Assembly: GCA_021413675.1 (NCBI GenBank)
Contig: JAIOQA010000199.1
Coordinates: forward strand, 1 to 64,000
Source of the DNA: Deltaproteobacteria bacterium
Lineage (GTDB): Bacteria > Myxococcota_A > Polyangia > Haliangiales > Haliangiaceae
Length of the DNA: 64,000 nt
Reading direction: 5' to 3'
Shown here in pieces: positions 2,757 to 20,314 of the stretch. Each line of letters begins with the position of its first letter. The stretch's first letter is position 1. The notes below the pieces were generated by a model, which saw nothing but the letters and a program-made list of their open reading frames with translations, had not been told where the DNA came from and searched no databases. Position numbers and translations under genes: made by a program.

Positions 2757-2845
2757 ACATGATCGACGCGCACCAGGCCGCCACTATTGCGCGCAGGCGC
2801 ACGTGCGCGAGATCGCCTCGCACACTCGCGCGTTGACACCTCCCG

Positions 2846-3721
2846 ATGCCCCGCCCTTGGCTCGTCCTGCTCGCGCTCGCCGCCCTCGGCCGCTCCGCCG
2901 CCGCCGAGATCAACATGGCCGACTCGGTCGAGTGGATGACCGCCGATGCGGACGCGGTCGTCGTCGGCACGATCGCCTCGTCGACGGTGACCCCAAGCGA
3001 CGACCACACGGTCTGGGCGGTCGCCACGATCGACGTCACCGCGACGCTCAAGGGCGCGGCGGCGAAGCGCGTGACCTTCGCCGTGCAGACCGATGCGAGC
3101 GGCGTACCCGCGGGCTGGCTCGGGCACGAGGCGGTGTTCTTCCTGGTGAAGAGCGACCGGCGCGCCCATGACTCGGGCTGCGTCCGGGCGTGCCACTACG
3201 ATCGCGCGGCCTGGGCGCTGCGCCGCGGCGTCGACGACGGCGTCGTGACGCTCGACGCGAAGGCCGGCGAGGAGGTCTACACGGCCGCGTTCACCGCGCT
3301 GCGCGCGCGCGCCGACGTGGTCGCCGCGGTGAAGGCCGCCGCGTCGTCGAAGGCGACCCGGGCCATCAACGTCGACGTGCCGTGGGACAGCGACGCCAGC
3401 CACGCGCTCTACGCGGGCAGCGCTGTGTGGATGTACATCCCGATCGACGCTGCGGCCGAGGCCCGCGCGGTCGCGTGGATCGCCGACGCCAGCGTCAACC
3501 TTCGGGTCCAGGGCGTGCGCGTGCTCGCCGAGCGGCGGTCGGCGGCCACGATCCGGCGGCTGAAGGCGCTGCTCGCCGACCCGGGGTTCGCGACGGTGAC
3601 CGAGAGCGGCAAGCCGACGATTCGCCGCTACCTCGTGCGCCAGGCCGCCGACGCCGCGCTCACCGCGTGGAAGGTCGCGCACGCCGCGCCAACCATCGAC
3701 GAGCCGCTGCTCACGCCGTGA
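2846..3721 (+). CDS. exported protein of unknown function
   Basis: 291 residues. A short signal peptide (PRPWLVLLALAALGRSAAA, about residues 2-20) ends in a plausible signal peptidase I site. The mature protein begins INMADSVEWMTADADAVVVGTI, an opening seen in uncharacterised exported proteins of this phylum whose first domain resembles a beta-barrel fold. Two cysteines (about 112 and 116) are close together. The C-terminal third, from about residue 215, is helical and HEAT-like (VQGVRVLAERRSAATIRRLKALLADPGF). Likely periplasmic. Function unknown. It is convergent with, and overlaps by 11 bases, the methyltransferase on the other strand. Confidence 0.6.
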   Translation: MPRPWLVLLALAALGRSAAAEINMADSVEWMTADADAVVVGTIASSTVTPSDDHTVWAVATIDVTATLKGAAAKRVTFAVQTDASGVPAGWLGHEAVFFLVKSDRRAHDSGCVRACHYDRAAWALRRGVDDGVVTLDAKAGEEVYTAAFTALRARADVVAAVKAAASSKATRAINVDVPWDSDASHALYAGSAVWMYIPIDAAAEARAVAWIADASVNLRVQGVRVLAERRSAATIRRLKALLADPGFATVTESGKPTIRRYLVRQAADAALTAWKVAHAAPTIDEPLLTP

Positions 3722-4367
3722 CCGGCTCGAAGAAGTAGAAGTCGGAGAAGCAGCCGGTCTTGTAGTCGCCCTTGTACGGATAGCGGTTGGGCAGGTGGCG
3801 GACCAGCTTCCAGCCCGGCAGCTCGCGCGCGATCCACGCGGTGAACTTGCGGTGTCGCACGTGCGCGCCGTCGCCGCGATCCTCGTCGGTGTCGCTGGCG
3901 TAGATCGCGACGTGCTTGGTCGCGGCCGCGAACAGCGTGCGCATGTAGCGCTCGAAGACCGCGTCCTCGACCAGGTGGTAGATGACGTCGAGGGACAGCG
4001 CGAGCTCGGCGGTCTCGCCGGCGTACGCGCTCATCGGCGCGAACGTGCGGGTGGGATCGCTCGCGAACCGCGCGCGGCACGCGGCGATCGCGGCGTCGCT
4101 CACGTCGTAGCCGGCGTAGCGCGGGTAGGTCGCGAGGCTGAGCTGGTTGCCATCGCCCGATCCGAACTCGATCACCGTGGCGATGCCGCGCTCGGCGACG
4201 AAGCCGTTCAGGACCTCGGCCTTGAACTCGGCGAACTTGCCGTACGACCCGACGCCCGAGTTGCCGCCCTCCTCGTAGCGCGCGCGCCAGTAGGCCTCGG
4301 AGCCCTCGAACGGGCGGGGGCGCAGCTTGCGGACCAGCGAGGACACGAGGCCCTTGAACGTCGCCAT
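3711..4367 (-). CDS. SAM-dependent class I methyltransferase
   Basis: 218 residues. The SAM-binding core is visible as VIEFGSGDGNQLSL (about 65-78), followed by YAGYDVSDAAI and an ALSLDVIYHLVED segment (motif IV-like, about 124-135). This is a small-molecule or sugar-type methyltransferase; the substrate is not readable from sequence. The C-terminus YKTGCFSDFYFFEP is conserved in relatives located in surface-glycan clusters. I chose the ATG at 4367 because the reading frame upstream is low-complexity shadow. It lies divergently from the flippase and glycosyltransferase genes, so a role in modifying an exported glycan is a reasonable guess. Confidence 0.75.
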   Translation of the reverse strand: MATFKGLVSSLVRKLRPRPFEGSEAYWRARYEEGGNSGVGSYGKFAEFKAEVLNGFVAERGIATVIEFGSGDGNQLSLATYPRYAGYDVSDAAIAACRARFASDPTRTFAPMSAYAGETAELALSLDVIYHLVEDAVFERYMRTLFAAATKHVAIYASDTDEDRGDGAHVRHRKFTAWIARELPGWKLVRHLPNRYPYKGDYKTGCFSDFYFFEPVTA

Positions 4368-5972: not shown

Positions 5973-7096
5973 GCGTGAGCGAGCTACCGCGCGTCGGTGT
6001 GTTCACGACGACGTTCCTGCCGTACTCGCAGACGTTCATCCACGACGAGCTGCGCTTCCACACGCGGTATCGCGCCGAGGTGTTCACCTCGTGGCGCGCG
6101 AACCAGGCCAGCTTCCCGTACGAGCCGGTGCACTGCGGCGGGCGGATCTACAAGTACCTCAACCTGGCGCCGGCGTTCACGCGCCGGCTCAAGCGTGGCT
6201 TCGCGCTGGTCCACGCCCACTTCGGCGTCGGCGGTGCGCGCGCGGCCGGGTTCGCGCGCCGCGCGAAGCTGCCGCTGGTGATCACGTTCCACGGCTACGA
6301 CGTGCCGCTGCTCACCAGCCTGCGGCGGTTCACGCCCGAGTACTGGGGCTACGCGCTGACCGCGCGCAAGACCATGATGAAGGCCATGACCCTCGGGCTG
6401 TGCGCGTCCGAGGAGCTCCGCGAGATGCTGCTCGACTACGGCGTGCCGGCGGATCGCCTGCGGATCTGGCGGCTCGGGATCGATCTCGAGAAGTTCGCGC
6501 CGGGCGCGCGCGATGCGGCGCAGCCGTCGGTCGTGATGATCGGCCGCTTCGTCGAGAAGAAGGGCTTCGAGTACGGGCTGCGCGCGTTCGCCGATCAGGT
6601 CGCGCGCGGCGCGGCCGGTCACCTGACCGTGATCGGCGATGGCGAGCGCGAGGCGCGGTTGAAGGGGATCGTCGCGGAGCGGGGCATCGGCGCGCGCGTG
6701 ACCTTCACCGGCGCGGTGCCGTCGGCCGAGGTCCAGCGCCACCTGCGGTCCGCGGACATCCTGATGTGCCCGAGCGTCACCGGCGTCGACGGCGATCGCG
6801 AGTCGGGCCTGATCGTCGCCAAGGAGGCGAGCGCCAGCCAGGTCGTGCCGCTCGGCACCTGGCATGGCGGCATCCACGAGATCATCGACGACGGCGTCAC
6901 CGGCTTCCTGGTGCCCGAGCGCAACGTGACGGCGCTGTCGGACCGGCTCGGCCGCCTGCTGAGCGACGCCGCGCTGCGCCAGCGCATGGGTCTGGCCGCG
7001 CGCGCGAAGATGGAGCGCGAGTACGACATCCGCGAGCGGCTCGCGCGGCTCGAGGAGCACTACGACGAGGCGATCGCGATGCACGCCGCTCGCTGA
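5969..7096 (+). CDS. GT4-family glycosyltransferase
   Basis: 375 residues from the GTG at 5969, which overlaps the flippase stop; a second GTG six bases later is an alternative. It is a GT-B fold enzyme. The N-terminal domain holds VHAHFGVGGARAAGFAR and LVITFHGYDVPLLTSL. The C-terminal GT4 domain begins at VVMIGRFVEKKGFEYGLRAF and contains the nucleotide-sugar binding stretch ESGLIVAKEASASQ, with the conserved E-x7-E-like spacing, and GGIHEIIDDGVTGFLVP. It transfers a sugar from an activated donor to a growing surface glycan on the cytoplasmic face. A strong hairpin follows 39 bases downstream and probably ends the transcript. Confidence 0.88.
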   Translation: MSVSELPRVGVFTTTFLPYSQTFIHDELRFHTRYRAEVFTSWRANQASFPYEPVHCGGRIYKYLNLAPAFTRRLKRGFALVHAHFGVGGARAAGFARRAKLPLVITFHGYDVPLLTSLRRFTPEYWGYALTARKTMMKAMTLGLCASEELREMLLDYGVPADRLRIWRLGIDLEKFAPGARDAAQPSVVMIGRFVEKKGFEYGLRAFADQVARGAAGHLTVIGDGEREARLKGIVAERGIGARVTFTGAVPSAEVQRHLRSADILMCPSVTGVDGDRESGLIVAKEASASQVVPLGTWHGGIHEIIDDGVTGFLVPERNVTALSDRLGRLLSDAALRQRMGLAARAKMEREYDIRERLARLEEHYDEAIAMHAAR

Positions 7097-7134
7097 GCAG
7101 CGGACGGCTCGCTGATCACGACGCCGAAAAAGGC

Positions 7135-7160
7135 GAGAAGGCGGGAGGCCCCGCCTTCTC
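7135..7160 (+). terminator. hairpin after glycosyltransferase gene
   Basis: A perfect 11-bp inverted repeat (GAGAAGGCGGG / CCCGCCTTCTC) with a 4-base loop lies 38 bases after the glycosyltransferase stop. No U-run follows (TCGTTGC), so it is either a weak intrinsic terminator or a 3' stabilising hairpin. It also marks the boundary to a lower-GC stretch. Confidence 0.6.
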
Positions 7161-7624
7161 TCGTTGCACTTCGCATTGTCGTTCCGACGTTTCCCTTCTG
7201 CGAGTAACAACAACCCAACAGTTCCGTTCCGCCTACCGAGCGTCGTGCCAGTCCACTTCCGTCAGGCGTGCGCCTGATTCGGTGCGCAGTGGGACAAGAC
7301 CCATTACGTGATTCCGACCGAAGTCTGGAATCTCTTGGATGACGCGGGCACTAACAGCGCCGCTCGCGGTGTCACGAGGAATGTGACCGTGACTGGTGCC
7401 AAGAACCTCTTTTCCTCCCCGTGTGGGGCGACCGGAATCGATGCTCTGTACCGTCTCTCGATTCCTACGCTACGCCTGGTTTTCGCCGCTGGCAACGGCA
7501 AATCGACGATCGCGCTGCGGCGCAGTGACGCTCCGGAAATCGGCGTGAAGCGCCGCCGTGACTTCGCATCGCACCGCGCTGCCACGGCCGCGAGGCGCAT
7601 CCCGCGCGTGCTACACGCCGGCTC
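7161..7624. other. gene-free stretch of lower GC
   Basis: 464 bases without a supportable gene. Base composition drops visibly, with runs such as AACAACAACCCAACAG and TTTTCCTCCCC, compared with the surrounding coding DNA. One open frame (7308-7628, plus strand, 106 codons) reaches into the FkbM start, but its translation has no recognisable domain and no GC-rich third-position pattern. I see no tRNA, terminal repeats or clear promoter. It could be a remnant of transferred DNA, or the leader and regulatory region of the FkbM gene. Confidence 0.4.
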
Positions 7625-8401
7625 ATGAACCTCGTCGCGAGCGTCCGACGCGCCGTGTTCGACGTCCAGATGCGGCGCACCAGCCGCACCGATGAGCCCG
7701 AGCTCGCGCTGGTACCGGCGCTGTGCCCCGCGGGCCAGGTGTTCCTCGACGTCGGCGCCAACCGCGGCGTCTACGCCTGGGTCGCGCGCCGCGCCGGCGC
7801 CAGGGTGATCGCGATCGAGCCGCACCCCGCGATGGCCGCGCAGCTGCGCCGCGCGTTCGGCCCGGCGATCGACGTGCGCGAGCTCGCGCTATCCGATGGC
7901 GCCGGCGTGGTCACGCTCCACGTTCCTCGCCATCGCGGCCGTCCCCTGACCTCGCGCAGCTCGCTCGACCTGGGCGCCAACCCCGGGCTGGCGCTGACGG
8001 CGGTCGAGGTCGAGCGCGCGCGCCTCGACGATCTCGATCTGCCCGCGCTCGGGATGATCAAGATCGACGTCGAGGGCCACGAGCTCGCCGCGGTTCGCGG
8101 CGCGCAGGCGCGGCTGGCGCAGGATCGCCCGCCGGTCATGATCGAGGTCGAGGAGCGCCACCACGCTGGCGCGATCGCCGCGATGCGCGCGCTCATGTCC
8201 GAGGCCGGCTACGACGGCCACTTCCTGGACCTCGGCCGGCTGCGGCCGATCGGCGAGTTCGATCTCGCCGTGCACCAGCGCCGCGAGCACGCCGTCGCGC
8301 CGCGCGCCGGCCGCGCGCCGGGGACGATCTACATCAACAACTTCGTCTTCCTGCACCGCGCCGATCGCGCGGTCCGCGAGCGCCTGCGCGCGTGGCTGTA
8401 G
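7625..8401 (+). CDS. FkbM-family methyltransferase
   Basis: 258 residues. SAM motif I is VFLDVGANRGVYAWVARRAG (about 39-58), followed by VIAIEPHPAMAAQLRRAFG, and the family-defining GMIKIDVEGHELAAVRGA at about 142-159. FkbM proteins methylate hydroxyl groups of sugars, polyketides or lipid-linked glycans. Given the flippase and glycosyltransferase upstream, O-methylation of a surface glycan is the likeliest role, although a 528-base gap with a hairpin separates them and it probably has its own promoter. The C-terminal IYINNFVFLHR segment is also typical of the family. Confidence 0.85.
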   Translation: MNLVASVRRAVFDVQMRRTSRTDEPELALVPALCPAGQVFLDVGANRGVYAWVARRAGARVIAIEPHPAMAAQLRRAFGPAIDVRELALSDGAGVVTLHVPRHRGRPLTSRSSLDLGANPGLALTAVEVERARLDDLDLPALGMIKIDVEGHELAAVRGAQARLAQDRPPVMIEVEERHHAGAIAAMRALMSEAGYDGHFLDLGRLRPIGEFDLAVHQRREHAVAPRAGRAPGTIYINNFVFLHRADRAVRERLRAWL

Positions 8402-14982: not shown

Positions 14983-14983
<1 letters not shown>

Positions 14984-16524
14984 CAGGCACCCGCGTGGGG
15001 GTCGTCCGGCGCGGACGCGAACATGTTGTTCAGCCGGCTGCGCTCGGAGTCGAAGGTGTAGGTCGGGGTGCCGCTCAGGATGCCGTGGACGCCGCGGAAC
15101 GGTCCGTGGATGTGTGGGCCGGTGCTGTCGATCGTGTACTCGCGGATGTCCTTGTCGTGGTACGTGCCGCGCATCTTGAGCACGGTCAGGCCGCGGCGCA
15201 TCTCGCCGTGCAGCTCGACGTAGCGCAGCAGGATGATCGTGTCGGTGATCGTCGAGATGTGGGTCTCGGTGATCGACTCGCCGCCGGCCAGCATCGAGGT
15301 CGTGTTGGTCAGCATGCCGGTGATCTCGAGGTGCTTGATCGTGCTGGTCAGCGCGATCACGAACTCGCGGAACGACTTCGGGGTCGAGACCCGCTCGAAC
15401 GCCGACATGCTGTCGATCGCGACCCGCGCCGGCTTGAAGTCGAGGATGTCGCGCTTCATCTGGATCAGGTGATCCTCGAGGCCCATCACCTCGGGGTACC
15501 GGCAGACGATCCGCAGGAGCCCGTCCTTCTCGGCCTGCTCGAAGTCGACGCCCCACGACGCGGCGTTACGCGTGAGCTGCTCGCGACTCTCCTCGGCGCC
15601 GAACAACAGCGCGCGCTCGCCCGCGGCGATCGCGGCCTTGATGTACTGCGAGACCATCAGCGTCTTGCCGGTGCCGGTCGCGCCGCTGGTCAGGATGATC
15701 GAGTCGCGGTACATGCCGCCGCCGCACATCTTGTCGAGCTCGGGCACGCCCGAGGACACGCGGATCTGCGACGAGCGCTGCTTCAGCTCGATCGCCGACA
15801 GCGGGATGATCGTCACGCCGTCCTCGCCATCGATCGTGAACGGGTACTCGCCCTTGTGGTGGGTGGCGCCGCGGAACTTCAGGATCTCGACCGTCCGGCG
15901 CCGCTTCTCCTGCTCGAGCCGGTTGCGCAGCAGGATGACGTTGTCGGCGACGAACTCCTCGACGCCCCACCGGCCGACGCCGCCCTCCTCGTCGGTGCGC
16001 TCCATCGTGATCAGCGTGGTCACGCCGAGCTGCCGCAGCCCGGCGGCGATCCGGTGGAGCTCGCGGCGGATGATGTTGGGGTCGGTGAGCTGCGGGAACA
16101 GCGCGCCGATCGCGTCGAGGATCACGCGCTTGGCATTGACCGTGCGGATCGCGTTCTCGATCCGCGCCAGCAGCGCCGACAGATCGTAGGGGCCGGTGGT
16201 GATCGTCTCCTCGCCGGGCTCGGGGGTCGCGTCGACGACGGCGATCCGCTTGTCCGCCAGCAGGCCCTCGAGATCCCAGCCGAACGACCGCACGTTCTGC
16301 ATGAGATCGATCGGGGCCTCCTCGAAGGTGACGAAGACGCCGTTCTCCTCGAACTGGCGCACGCCGGACAGCAGGAACTGCAAGGCGAGCACGGTCTTGC
16401 CGCTGCCGGCGGTGCCGGAGATGAGCGTGCTGCGGCCCTTGGGGATCCCGCCGTTGGCGATCTGGTCGAAGCCGATGATGCCGGTGGGTAGCTTGGTCAG
16501 CTCGAGGGGCGGTAGGCGGCTCAT
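14983..16524 (-). CDS. kaiC: KaiC, circadian-clock-type double ATPase/kinase
   Basis: 513 residues, essentially the length of cyanobacterial KaiC (519). The CI domain (about 1-245) has Walker A GTAGSGKT 37-44 and catalytic Glu pair E68-E69. The CII domain has Walker A GATGTGKT 281-288 and Glu pair E311-E312. [14 protein letters not shown] (417-430) aligns with the cyanobacterial phosphorylation segment, placing T419, S424 and T425 at the positions of T426, S431 and T432. The tail after about 480 ([18 protein letters not shown]) resembles the A-loop and KaiA-binding tail. It should form a hexameric ATPase and autokinase/autophosphatase. Its ATG overlaps the kaiB stop by four bases. Short two-domain KaiC homologues of other functions exist, but the conserved phosphosites favour a true KaiC. 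Confidence 0.95.
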
Positions 16525-16814
16525 GGGTGCATTCCTCGGTCGAGGTGTTCGAGATCGAGGCCGATCAGGACGCGCTCGCGGTCGCTGAGGTCGCCGATGA
16601 TCTTGCGGACCGGCTCGGGCAGGCGCTTGACCAGGGTCGGCGTCGCGAGGATCTTCTCGCGCTCGGCCAGCGCCGGATGCTCGAGCACGTCGATGACCTC
16701 GACCTCGTAGAGCCCGGGGAACTCGCCCTCGCAGATCCGCCGCAGGTTGTCGATGGCGCGCTGCGACTGCGACGTTCGCCCGGTGATGTACAGCCGCAGC
16801 TTGAAGTGGCTCAT
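16521..16814 (-). CDS. kaiB: KaiB, KaiC partner (thioredoxin-like fold-switcher)
   Basis: 97 residues, close to the cyanobacterial length of about 102. Family hallmarks are all present: [54 protein letters not shown] and [16 protein letters not shown]. The last block is the part that refolds when cyanobacterial KaiB switches to the KaiC-binding form. It is expected to bind phosphorylated KaiC on the CI ring and to gate other factors. It lacks the acidic C-terminal extension seen in Synechococcus. It is flanked by ATGA overlaps on both sides: the preceding receiver protein upstream and kaiC downstream. Confidence 0.96.
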
Positions 16815-17659
16815 GATCGTTCTCCTTGGCCGAAGCGTCGCCGCTGGCCGACGCGGTAGTACTCGACGAGCAGGCCCATCATCTCGAGCGCGAGCAGGCG
16901 GGCCTCGACGGCCAGCGATCGCGCCCGCGGGCCGTCCGCGATCGCGATCGCGCGGTCGAGCGCGGTCACGTGCAGGTCGAGCAGATCGCGGGGGCCGCCG
17001 CTGGCGTCGCCGACCGACGTGATGATGCGCTCGGCCTGGACCCGCGGGACCTCGATGCGCTCGACCTCGTACGCCAGGTAGGGCTCGAGCAAGACGAAGT
17101 ACGCGCGGACGAGCTCCTCGAACCGGGCCGGATCGCGGGCCGCGATGGCGCCGGTCCCGGCGATCGCCGCGGTCACGAGGGTGGTCTGCGCGCGCGACGA
17201 CAGCGCGCGGTAGCGATCGAGCTGACCCTGCAGCTCGCGCACCTGGGCCTCGCGCACGCGGGTCAGCGCGTAGCCGATCGCGCGGTTGAGGTTGCGGGCG
17301 CGGGTGTCGTGCTTGGCGAGGTAGTCCTGCGCGCCGGCGTCGATGCACGCCAGCGCGAGCGCTTCGTCGTCGGAGCCGGTCAGCACCACGATCGGCACGT
17401 CGGTCGCGACGTGGCGCAGCGCGCGCACGCTCTCGACGCCCGCGCAGTCGGGGAGGCTGAGATCGAGCACGACCACGTCGATGGCGCGGGCCCGGAGCCG
17501 ATCGACCGCCTGGTCCATGCGCGGGACGTGCACCACCTGGTACTGGCCCAGGCCTTCGTCCAGCATCGAGCTCACCAGCTCGGCGTCGCCGGCGTTGTCC
17601 TCGACCAGCAACAGCACGCGCGGCGGCGAGCCCTCGGTCATCGTCGGTGCACCGATCAT
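16811..17659 (-). CDS. REC plus KaiA/RsbU-like helical domain (candidate KaiA)
   Basis: 282 residues; the ATG at 17659 is used, and a second at 17641 is possible. The receiver (about 14-125) is canonical: E20-D21, phospho-acceptor D66, T94, K116. A linker helix (about 125-165) leads to a helical domain, 177-272. This carries [30 protein letters not shown] and [21 protein letters not shown], which I can align by eye with the RsbU N-terminal bundle and with the KaiA C-terminal domain (SCOP KaiA/RbsU domain). Cyanobacterial KaiA has the same layout and nearly the same length (284), but its receiver is a pseudo-receiver. It is coupled to kaiB by an ATGA overlap. KaiA-like stimulation of KaiC, controlled by phosphorylation, is my inference. 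Confidence 0.8.
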
Positions 17660-17690
17660 CCACGGCCATCGTGGACCCCTGGCGAACGCT

Positions 17691-17734
17691 GGCCAGTCGG
17701 TGATCGCGGCAACCGCTGTCGGGATGTTGCCGAC
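17691..17734 (-). promoter_or_regulatory. palindrome plus conserved box before candidate kaiA
   Basis: On the minus strand a 17-base near-palindrome (GTCGGCAACATCCCGAC, 17734-17718; one arm mismatch) is followed after 12 bases by GATCACCGACTGGCC (17705-17691), which ends 31 bases before the start at 17659. The same two elements at the same spacing precede the neighbouring stand-alone receiver gene, so this is probably an operator or promoter shared within the cluster. The binding protein is unknown; the NarL-type regulator two genes upstream is a candidate. Confidence 0.55.
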
Positions 17735-17746
17735 TCCGATCGATCG

Positions 17747-18136
17747 TCAGCCCGCCGCCGCGCCGAGGAGGTCACGGAGGACCTCCCCCACACGGTCGCA
17801 GTCGAGGGCCTTGACGAGCACGCGATCGGCGCCGCCGGCCAGGCACGCCTCGCGCAGCGACGGCTCGTTGCTGGCGGTGAGCACGACCACCACGCACGGC
17901 CGCGCGCTGGCCCGGATCGTCGCGAGCATGGTCAGGCCGCTCGCGGCGCCGAGCTGGAGATCGAGGACGACCGCGTCGGGGCGGCTGGTCTCCCACGCGT
18001 GCAACGCCTGCGCGAGATCGTCGATCGGCGGCGCGACCTCGAACAGCTCGAGCTCTTCGACCTGCTGGACGATGCGCCGGGCGACCTCGGGAGCGTCGTC
18101 GACGACGAGCACGCGCGGTCGCGGGTGCCAGCACAT
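17747..18136 (-). CDS. stand-alone response regulator receiver
   Basis: 129 residues, receiver domain only. Acidic pair VVDD (11-14), phospho-acceptor D59 in [19 protein letters not shown] (Thr of the switch) and VKA lysine near residue 109. There is no output domain, so it acts as a phosphate sink, relay or protein-binding switch, like CheY or Spo0F. It lies between the NarL-type regulator and the candidate KaiA gene, with intergenic gaps of about 90 bases on both sides that hold the shared palindrome element. It may pass phosphate between the cluster's kinases. Confidence 0.88.
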
Positions 18137-18166
18137 CCTCGCACCCTGCCCATCTGTCGCGGGTGC

Positions 18167-18211
18167 GGCCAGTCGGTGGATCTGCCACGAGCGCGTCGGC
18201 AGTTTGCCGAC
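18167..18211 (-). promoter_or_regulatory. palindrome plus conserved box before receiver gene
   Basis: On the minus strand a perfect 7-bp-arm palindrome with 3-base spacer (GTCGGCAAACTGCCGAC, 18211-18195) is followed after 12 bases by GATCCACCGACTGGCC (18182-18167), ending 30 bases before the receiver start at 18136. This repeats the arrangement at 17691-17734, with ACCGACTGGCC identical in both. It reads as a duplicated operator or promoter module. Confidence 0.6.
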
Positions 18212-18227
18212 AGGCGCGAGTGGTGGG

Positions 18228-18863
18228 TCAGGTCACGAGCTTCTGATGCAGCGCGTAGCGCGCGATCTCGACGTAGGTCGTGAGCCCGGTCTTCTCGCGG
18301 ATGCGCGCGACGTAGGTCGCCACGGTCTTGTCGCTGACCTCGAGCTCGGCCGCGATCTCCTTGATCGCGCGGCCCAGCGCGATCAGGCGGAAGATCTCGA
18401 GCTCGCGCGGCGACAGCCGATCGTGCCGCGACTCGGTCACCGGCGCGGGCCGCAGGCTGGTCGCGATCTCGGCGGCGGTGTCGGGGTGCAGGTACGTGCC
18501 GCCCGCCGCGACCCGGGCGATCGCCTCGACGAGATCGTCGGCGGCGCGGTGCTTGTGGATGAGGCCGCTGGCGCCGGCCTTCATGGTCTCGACGACGTAC
18601 TCGATCCCGGTCGCGGCGGTGAGGACCAGCACCGGCACGCGCGGCGCGGCCTCGCGGATCGCGGCGAGGCCATCGAGCACGGTCGCGCCGGGCATGAACA
18701 CGTCGAGCAGGATCAGGTCCCAGGGCTGGGTCGGGAGCATGGCGCGGAGCGCGCCGTGATCGCCGGCCTCGCTGATCGCGACCTCGGGCCACGCCTCGCG
18801 CAGGATCTCGCGCAGGCCGCGGCGCGTGACCTCGTGGTCGTCGGCGATCAGGGCGTGGTTCAT
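18228..18863 (-). CDS. NarL/LuxR-type response regulator
   Basis: 211 residues. The receiver (1-120) has ADD at 7-9, phospho-acceptor D54 (ILLDVFMPG) and a VLVLTAAT switch region. The LuxR-type helix-turn-helix (about 145-205) contains LSPRELEIFRLIALGRAIKEIAAELEVSD with the usual KTVATYVARIREKTG recognition helix. It is a DNA-binding transcription regulator activated by phosphorylation. The ATG overlaps the upstream HisKA_3 kinase stop (ATGA), making a textbook NarX-NarL type pair. The nearby palindromes at 17718 and 18195 are plausible targets for this dimeric regulator. Confidence 0.93.
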   Translation of the reverse strand: MNHALIADDHEVTRRGLREILREAWPEVAISEAGDHGALRAMLPTQPWDLILLDVFMPGATVLDGLAAIREAAPRVPVLVLTAATGIEYVVETMKAGASGLIHKHRAADDLVEAIARVAAGGTYLHPDTAAEIATSLRPAPVTESRHDRLSPRELEIFRLIALGRAIKEIAAELEVSDKTVATYVARIREKTGLTTYVEIARYALHQKLVT

Positions 18864-20314
18864 GACGGTTCCGCGGCGGTCCGGGGCAGGTGCACGGTGG
18901 CGATGGTGCCGATCCCGGCCCGCGAGCGTAGCTCGACCCGGCCGCCGAGCGCGGCGGCGCGCTCGCGCATCCCGAGCAGGCCGAGCGACCGCGGGGCGTC
19001 GCTGGGCTGGAACCCGATGCCGTCGTCGGCGACGGTCAGCACCCAGGCCTCGGGCACCTCGTCGAGGCCAACCGTGACGGCGCGCGCCTGGGCGTGCCGC
19101 GCGACGTTGGTGAGCAGCTCCTGGAAGATCCGGAACATCGCGGTCGCGATCCGCTCGGGGGGCGGAGTCGGGGCATCGAGCCGCACCTCGAGGGCCAGCC
19201 CGGCGCGGTGCTCGAAGCGGCGGGCCTCGTCGCGGATCGCGGCGACCAGGCCGAGGGCGTCGAGCACGCTCGGCCGCAGCTCGAGCGCGATCCGCTGCAC
19301 GGTCTCGAGGGTCCGATCGGTCAGGCGCTCGGCCTCGGCCAGGCGATCGGTGATCGGGGCAGCGGCGTCGGGCGCGAGCCGGCGCGCGAGCCAGCGGAGA
19401 TCGAGCTTGAGGCCGGTGAGCAGCTGACCGAGCTCGTCGTGCACGGTCCGCGCGATGCGCGTGCGCTCGTCCTCGCGCACCGCGGTCAGCCGCTCGGTCA
19501 ACGCGCGCATCTCGGCGTCGCGCGCGACCAGGAGCGCGTTCTGGGCGCGGATCTCGGCCTCGCGCCGACGGCGCTCGCTGATGTTGCGGTAGATCGCGGC
19601 GTGCCCGACGACCGCGCCGGCATCGTCGTGCAGCGGGCTGACCACGCCCGAAAGAGTGATCGTGTGGCCATCGCGATGCAAGCGGTCGAACTCGCCCGTC
19701 GGCGAGGTGGCGGTGGTGTCGGGGGGCGACCGGACCAGCGCGCCGAACGGTTGACCGATCGCCTCGGCGGCGGAGTAGCCGAACATGGCCTCGGCCCCGC
19801 GGTTCCAGCTCGTCGCGATGCCCGCGGTCGTGGTGCTCACGATCGCGTCCGCGGACGCCTCGACGATCGCCGCGAGGTGCGCCGTGGCCGCGTTGGCCCG
19901 CCGCCGCTCGGCTTGCTCGCGCGTGCGCGCGATCGCGTAGCCCAGCGATCGGCGCAGGCTCTCGGCCCGCACCTCGTTCTTGGCGAGATAGTCCTGGGCG
20001 CCCTCGGCGATGCACGTGAGCGCGAGCTCGTGATCGTCGGTGCCGGTCAGCACGACGATCGGCACCTGCGGTGCCCGGCCGCGCACGTGCTGGACGCACG
20101 CCGCGCCGCGCGCGTCGGGGAGCCCAAGGTCGAGCAGCACGACGTCGACGTCGCCCTGGCCCAGGTGCGCGTTCGCCGCCGCCAGCGAGCTCGCGTGGAG
20201 GATCTGCGCGGCCGGGCCAGGGCTGCCAGCGAGGAGCTCGTCGACCAGCGCGGCGTCGCCCGGGTTGTCCTCGATGAGCAGCACCCGCAGCGCCGCGGCG
20301 GAGGCGCCCTGCAT
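18860..20314 (-). CDS. REC-PAS-HisKA_3 sensor kinase
   Basis: 484 residues. The N-terminal receiver (10-125) has phospho-acceptor D62. A PAS domain (about 145-250) includes AIVSTTTAGIATSWNRGAE. The dimerisation/phosphoacceptor domain is of the HisKA_3 (NarX/DegS) type with H292 in ARTVHDELGQLLTGLKLD. The ATPase has FQELLTNVARHA, ADDGIGF and LGLLGMRERAAALGG. It is soluble. It should phosphorylate the NarL-type regulator encoded next, with which it overlaps. The receiver end ([23 protein letters not shown]) is strikingly like that of the candidate KaiA protein, so the two receivers are probably recent paralogues. Confidence 0.92.
   Translation of the reverse strand: MQGASAAALRVLLIEDNPGDAALVDELLAGSPGPAAQILHASSLAAANAHLGQGDVDVVLLDLGLPDARGAACVQHVRGRAPQVPIVVLTGTDDHELALTCIAEGAQDYLAKNEVRAESLRRSLGYAIARTREQAERRRANAATAHLAAIVEASADAIVSTTTAGIATSWNRGAEAMFGYSAAEAIGQPFGALVRSPPDTTATSPTGEFDRLHRDGHTITLSGVVSPLHDDAGAVVGHAAIYRNISERRRREAEIRAQNALLVARDAEMRALTERLTAVREDERTRIARTVHDELGQLLTGLKLDLRWLARRLAPDAAAPITDRLAEAERLTDRTLETVQRIALELRPSVLDALGLVAAIRDEARRFEHRAGLALEVRLDAPTPPPERIATAMFRIFQELLTNVARHAQARAVTVGLDEVPEAWVLTVADDGIGFQPSDAPRSLGLLGMRERAAALGGRVELRSRAGIGTIATVHLPRTAAEPS

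Follow-up and report, generated by a model that had tools for sequence, protein, structure and literature searches.

Each of the two intergenic gaps in a kai gene cluster from a member of the Deltaproteobacteria, analysed here within a window of 64,000 nucleotides, carries a copy of one composite element that we read, with a probability of roughly 0.7 and from comparative sequence evidence, as a tandem activator operator for the cluster's NarL-type response regulator, driving a stand-alone REC gene and the kaiA3-kaiB-kaiC genes. In both gaps a 19-bp dyad (consensus TGTCGGCAAATTGCCGACA) is followed by a spacer of 16-17 bp, a CCGACT box and then 34-35 bp to a start codon. The same module occupies the corresponding gaps of syntenic NarL-kaiA3-kaiB-kaiC clusters from Rubrivivax, Ideonella, Phenylobacterium, an Acidobacteria metagenome-assembled genome (MAG) and an unassigned bacterium. 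Computation on these genomes shows the element itself, how it is conserved, spaced and placed, and that it co-occurs with the regulator gene.

The kai cluster and its relatives in other bacteria

On the minus strand the cluster runs in the order PAS kinase, REC, REC-PAS-HisKA_3 kinase, NarL-type REC-GerE regulator, first gap, lone REC, second gap, REC-KaiA-like protein, KaiB, KaiC, REC-kinase and REC-GGDEF-EAL protein. The gene for the REC-PAS-HisKA_3 histidine kinase (18860..20314, minus strand; Pfam HisKA_3, 5e-12), the probable cognate sensor, overlaps by 4 bases that of the NarL-type response regulator (18228..18863, minus strand), the proposed operator binder, whose Response_reg and GerE domains are the REC plus GerE combination characteristic of the regulators of NarL-family operators. 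Beyond the first gap lies the stand-alone REC gene (17747..18136, minus strand; 129 aa; Pfam Response_reg, 3e-20), which starts 34 nt past the box and is probably leaderless. The products of kaiB (16521..16814) and kaiC (14983..16524), both on the minus strand, score 119.5 and 729 bits against the NCBIfam KaiB and KaiC equivalog models, for which the cut-offs are 110 and 408 respectively.

The sequence-only reading of this DNA had proposed a candidate kaiA ahead of kaiB, and this proposal is backed by predicted fold. The kaiA3-like gene (16811..17659, minus strand) lies directly upstream of kaiB, as expected of kaiA3, and its product combines the two features by which KaiA3 is recognised, namely an N-terminal receiver domain (Response_reg, 3.3e-20) and a KaiA-type C-terminal helical bundle. 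A model of the C-terminal domain (pLDDT 78) returned KaiA structures as its first 11 PDB matches (best E 0.03, probability 1.00), none of these 11 reaching an E-value of 0.001; sequence similarity is weak, a sequence profile ranking KaiA first but only at an E-value of 0.06, and a Pfam scan of the protein did not match the KaiA family. The model, at these modest E-values, suggests that the C-terminal domain folds as KaiA. The full kaiA3-like protein was set aside as a query for relatives, having returned mostly other receiver domains.

Searched with KaiC, Rubrivivax (L031), Ideonella (L032), the Acidobacteria MAG (L033), Phenylobacterium (L034) and the unassigned bacterium (L035) each yielded a counterpart of the cluster, with a KaiC 83-89% identical to the window's. 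The gene order NarL-type regulator, kaiA3-like, kaiB, kaiC is common to all five; one or two REC genes separate the regulator from kaiA3 in L031, L032 and L034, and an orthologue of the HisKA_3 kinase adjoins the NarL-type gene in these three and in L035. Rubrivivax has two REC genes, each with its own copy of the element. The next best match to the window's KaiC in the sample of its own phylum is 67% identical, other KaiC matches in the phylum searches are 57-67% identical, and across samples of 401, 249, 399, 199 and 193 genomes a close cluster was found in the query's own genome only. The viral contigs searched gave no relative, and the plasmids searched yielded KaiC at 49-52% identity only. 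Since KaiC is 83-89% identical in five distant hosts versus at most 67% in its own phylum sample, the cluster is sporadic in distribution and probably horizontally acquired, as judged from records of which four of the five (all except Ideonella) are metagenome-assembled, with misbinning possible for each.

Two other loci are recorded here as separate observations. Mangrovihabitans (L038) carries two closely similar copies of kaiA3-like plus kaiB (2760-3853 and 6851-7944), only one of which is followed by a kaiC match, and a KaiC reading frame in another genome (L086; G1823:C1:4733347-4734855) contains one in-frame TGA.

Sequence and conservation of the gap element

The sequence-only reading had described a palindrome-plus-box duplicated between the two gaps, and the letters and distances it gave for both copies were all confirmed. 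On the minus strand the 17-mers are GTCGGCAAACTGCCGAC at 18195-18211 and, with one mismatch, GTCGGCAACATCCCGAC at 17718-17734; each is followed by exactly 12 bases and then by GATC(C)ACCGACTGGCC, which ends at 18167 and at 17691, leaving 30 bases to the ATG at 18136 and 31 bases to the ATG at 17659. Its division of the element into parts is corrected by the comparison with other genomes, in which the true unit is 19 bp rather than a 17-bp palindrome, and in which only CnGACw of the box is kept, the GATC and TGGCC letters being specific to the window and carrying no weight. The 19-bp distal dyads are TGTCGGCAAACTGCCGACG (copy 1; 18194..18212, minus strand), which precedes the lone REC gene, and AGTCGGCAACATCCCGACA (copy 2; 17717..17735, minus strand), which precedes the kaiA3-like gene.

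Within the host genome by itself the case for a shared element is suggestive only. With up to two mismatches allowed, strand-counted matches in the 10.8-Mb genome number 180 for the 17-mer and 52 for a reversed control; the 17-mer alone is not rare, and neither is the 11-mer box by itself. A gapped alignment of the two gaps falls in the top 0.5% of random window pairs (10/1,985). The earlier argument that identity and fixed spacing speak against chance is thin on single-genome statistics, and the element is accepted as real because comparison across genomes settles the matter.

In that comparison, matrices were built with one cluster left out at a time, and the site or sites of the held-out cluster ranked first in each of the six clusters (17.7-28.1 bits), the best score anywhere outside the sites being 12.6 bits. 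Matrices made without the window's own sites placed copy 1 first and copy 2 second in the 64 kb (19.8 and 17.7 bits; next 12.6). The nine-site consensus is invariant at positions 2, 3, 9, 14, 17 and 18. Occurrence of the motif all over the genome had been named beforehand as grounds for abandoning the claim; looked for in the six genomes (~42 Mb), the composite with at most one mismatch gave five matches, all five at kai clusters, and the control gave 0, so that for the composite this objection fails. Copy 2 (17717..17735) matches the composite with one mismatch. The 19-mer with at most three mismatches was found at nine places in the six whole genomes, and six of these lie within a kai cluster or next to one. 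Dyad-only matches at G096:C160, G000:C128 and G099:C26 were treated as chance, the box at the right spacing being absent. A sixth composite site, with two mismatches, lies on the Rubrivivax kai contig, where it precedes a REC-PAS-kinase gene and keeps both spacing and start distance.

Two side observations concern these copies. The Rubrivivax REC-PAS-kinase gene (L077, 7173-8758), on the opposite strand of the kai contig, is with its operator copy a candidate extra member of the regulon, and in the second Phenylobacterium gap (L034, 6690-6780) the CGnAAACGCGCCGAC of the first gap is repeated and the box-to-start distance kept, with the distal dyad degenerate.

The resemblance between the gaps could be a functionless leftover of a local duplication that copied a REC gene with its upstream DNA, and in Rubrivivax the REC genes and the element have indeed been duplicated together. 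Among distant hosts, however, the spacer sequences have diverged while the dyad, the box, the spacing and the -10 have persisted; the pattern is one of selection, and we consider a mere leftover exceedingly improbable. Slightly less improbable, and still very unlikely, is that the palindrome acts in RNA, as a hairpin (terminator, attenuator or 3'-end stabiliser) of the preceding gene. It begins approximately 12-17 bases past the stop codons of the NarL and REC genes, 86% of cells pair and three pairs are altered on both sides, but 11 of 81 cells are unpaired, the half-sites change one-sidedly (for example position 4/16 in three of nine sites), a T-run is absent, the region contains 0 terminator-like sites and a search for an Rfam family match found none. 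The palindrome moreover lies at a fixed distance from the box and from the start codon that follows, and it occurs after unrelated genes too. As a whole the comparison indicates that a regulator travelling with the clock genes very probably docks at the element.

Tandem sites and the predicted promoter

The distance from the 19-mer to the CnGACw box is 16 bp in seven of the nine sites, 17 bp in gap 2 and 15 bp in L033. Box and start codon are 33-35 bp apart in nine of ten cases, L033 being the exception, in a count that takes in the second gap of Phenylobacterium, which is clear on the box side only; the background for a start codon in this range is 0.10. When a second dyad was scored at 102 offsets, +22 was the best on average over the nine sites, with a local optimum of +23 for copy 1. 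The full second dyad is clear in Phenylobacterium, Ideonella, L035 and Rubrivivax A, and its left half is poor in the others. In the window the proximal weak dyad of copy 1 (18171..18189, minus strand; offset +23) has the CCGACT box at 18171-18176 as its outer half, and that of copy 2 (17695..17713, minus strand) has the box at 17695-17700, the right half matching and the left being poor. The most fitting reading of the box is probably that it forms the outer half of another dyad, a weaker one, 22 bp downstream. This reading alters the earlier proposal of a two-part operator/promoter serving REC and kaiA-kaiB-kaiC separately from the kinase genes; comparison favours the proposal as such, with the box probably dropping out as an independent element.

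A -10-like AnnnT whose T falls 6-8 nt ahead of the start codon is present in all nine sites, and none of 2,000 shuffles exceeded 6/9, in a test that allows all A/T pairs, gaps and offsets in range, the motif having been sought after the sequences were viewed. The putative -10 elements of the window are CAGGGT (18143..18148, minus strand), 6 nt 5' of the REC start codon, and CACGAT (17668..17673, minus strand), 8 nt 5' of the ATG at 17659. This constant placement of AnnnT ahead of the start codon suggests that the mRNAs are leaderless; two features, a -10 whose first base is not T and the GTG start in Ideonella, sit less well with a leaderless promoter. No consensus sigma-70 promoter (-35 and -10 hexamers 16-18 nt apart) was found in the region, and the box was rejected as a -35 hexamer because the only consistent -10-like motif stands 21-22 nt from it. 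The dyad-symmetric site sits where a NarL-family operator would, upstream of the promoter to be controlled, itself a prediction; the predicted layout comprises two sites on one helix face, around -66 and -44, followed downstream by a weak -10 and then a leaderless start.

Short open reading frames of 26-56 codons were seen at L033 213-383, L034 6780-6881 and L035 6748-6828, where no REC gene directly precedes kaiA3 or a gap follows REC. Their starts lie at, or close to, the fixed distance from the box, and their stop overlaps the kaiA3 start (ATGA), which suggests translational coupling from a leaderless leader reading frame.

The regulator and a circuit carried with the clock genes

The NarL-type protein encoded at 18228-18863 had been put forward as the regulator, and co-occurrence argues for it: among 34 KaiC loci the element is present at 5/5 with a NarL-type gene and at 0/29 without one. 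Since the five regulator-bearing loci are also the five nearest relatives of the window, this co-occurrence may reflect one joint gain and not many. The full-length NarL-type orthologues are 56-61% identical to that of the window, and the stretch KTVATY..RIR..TGL in the GerE domain is invariant in the five orthologues. It is unlikely that the operator belongs instead to another DNA-binding protein, or that the NarL-type protein represses there. The half-site architecture suits several dimeric regulator families and the co-occurrence is confounded by relatedness, but the element tracks the NarL-type gene through distant hosts that differ in their other regulators, and it is confined to kai clusters. 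As for repression, activation fits better because the sites lie upstream, at -66 and ~-37, of a weak -10 with no -35.

Under the activator reading, each gap would comprise a promoter and a tandem operator at which the NarL-type response regulator of the cluster itself acts; the binding protein, activation, the cognate kinase and the transcript start are what we infer here. The REC-PAS-HisKA_3 kinase encoded just upstream would phosphorylate the regulator, a dimer of which would occupy the strong 19-bp dyad, with its centre near -66. Two helical turns (22 bp) further downstream another dimer would sit on the weaker dyad, which has the CCGACT box near -37 as its outer half, and, overlapping the -35 region, would recruit RNA polymerase to a promoter with a weak -10 (nAnnnT) and no good -35. 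Transcription would begin at the start codon or no more than a few bases from it, giving leaderless REC and kaiA3-kaiB-kaiC mRNAs, and the clock genes would thereby answer to a two-component system of their own that accompanies them from one bacterium to another.

The arrangement resembles operators of the NarL/FixJ type in having a REC-GerE regulator beside a HisKA_3 kinase and dyad sites upstream of a promoter; to our knowledge TGTCGGCAAATTGCCGACA with a second weak dyad at +22 bp is unlike NarL or ComA sites. In cyanobacteria the SasA-RpaA two-component system controls kaiBC transcription, RpaA being an OmpR-type regulator. Two-component control of kai is thus common to both systems, whilst the regulator here is NarL-type and is encoded inside the kai cluster. 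The genes themselves recall the KaiA3-KaiB3-KaiC3 system of Synechocystis, in which the KaiA homologue likewise consists of a receiver domain and a KaiA-like C-terminal domain, and kaiA3 lies upstream of kaiB3 in one unit, as the kaiA3-like gene and kaiB do here (PMC11372060). The Synechocystis kaiC3 is located elsewhere on the chromosome (PMC11372060), whereas here kaiA-B-C are contiguous and accompanied by a dedicated two-component system and operators; that paper makes no mention of a palindrome (0 occurrences). A likeness also exists to the KaiC-kinase 'hourglass' loci of Ramlibacter, where a non-cyanobacterial kaiC stands beside two-component genes (PMC3164672); that study describes gene neighbourhoods and discusses the Rta_04330 family as possibly working without KaiB. 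Operators for NarL-type regulators are familiar elements; no description of a dedicated one, inherited with a kaiA3-B-C cluster across distant hosts, was found in open-access full text.

Regulator, operator and clock genes have remained together in distant hosts. A more speculative reading, which we think improbable, is that the operator forms the transcriptional feedback arm of a transferable heterotroph clock, in which the state of KaiC would gate the cluster's kinase, the kinase would phosphorylate the NarL-type regulator, and this in turn would drive rhythmic, leaderless kaiA3-kaiB-kaiC transcription; if true, an entire clock, together with the circuit for its input and output, would spread between bacteria as a cassette. 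An operator shared by distant hosts offers a ready reporter, names a regulator and a kinase and marks the kai clusters that carry the circuit, and it bears on whether heterotrophic bacteria with kai genes run real clocks.
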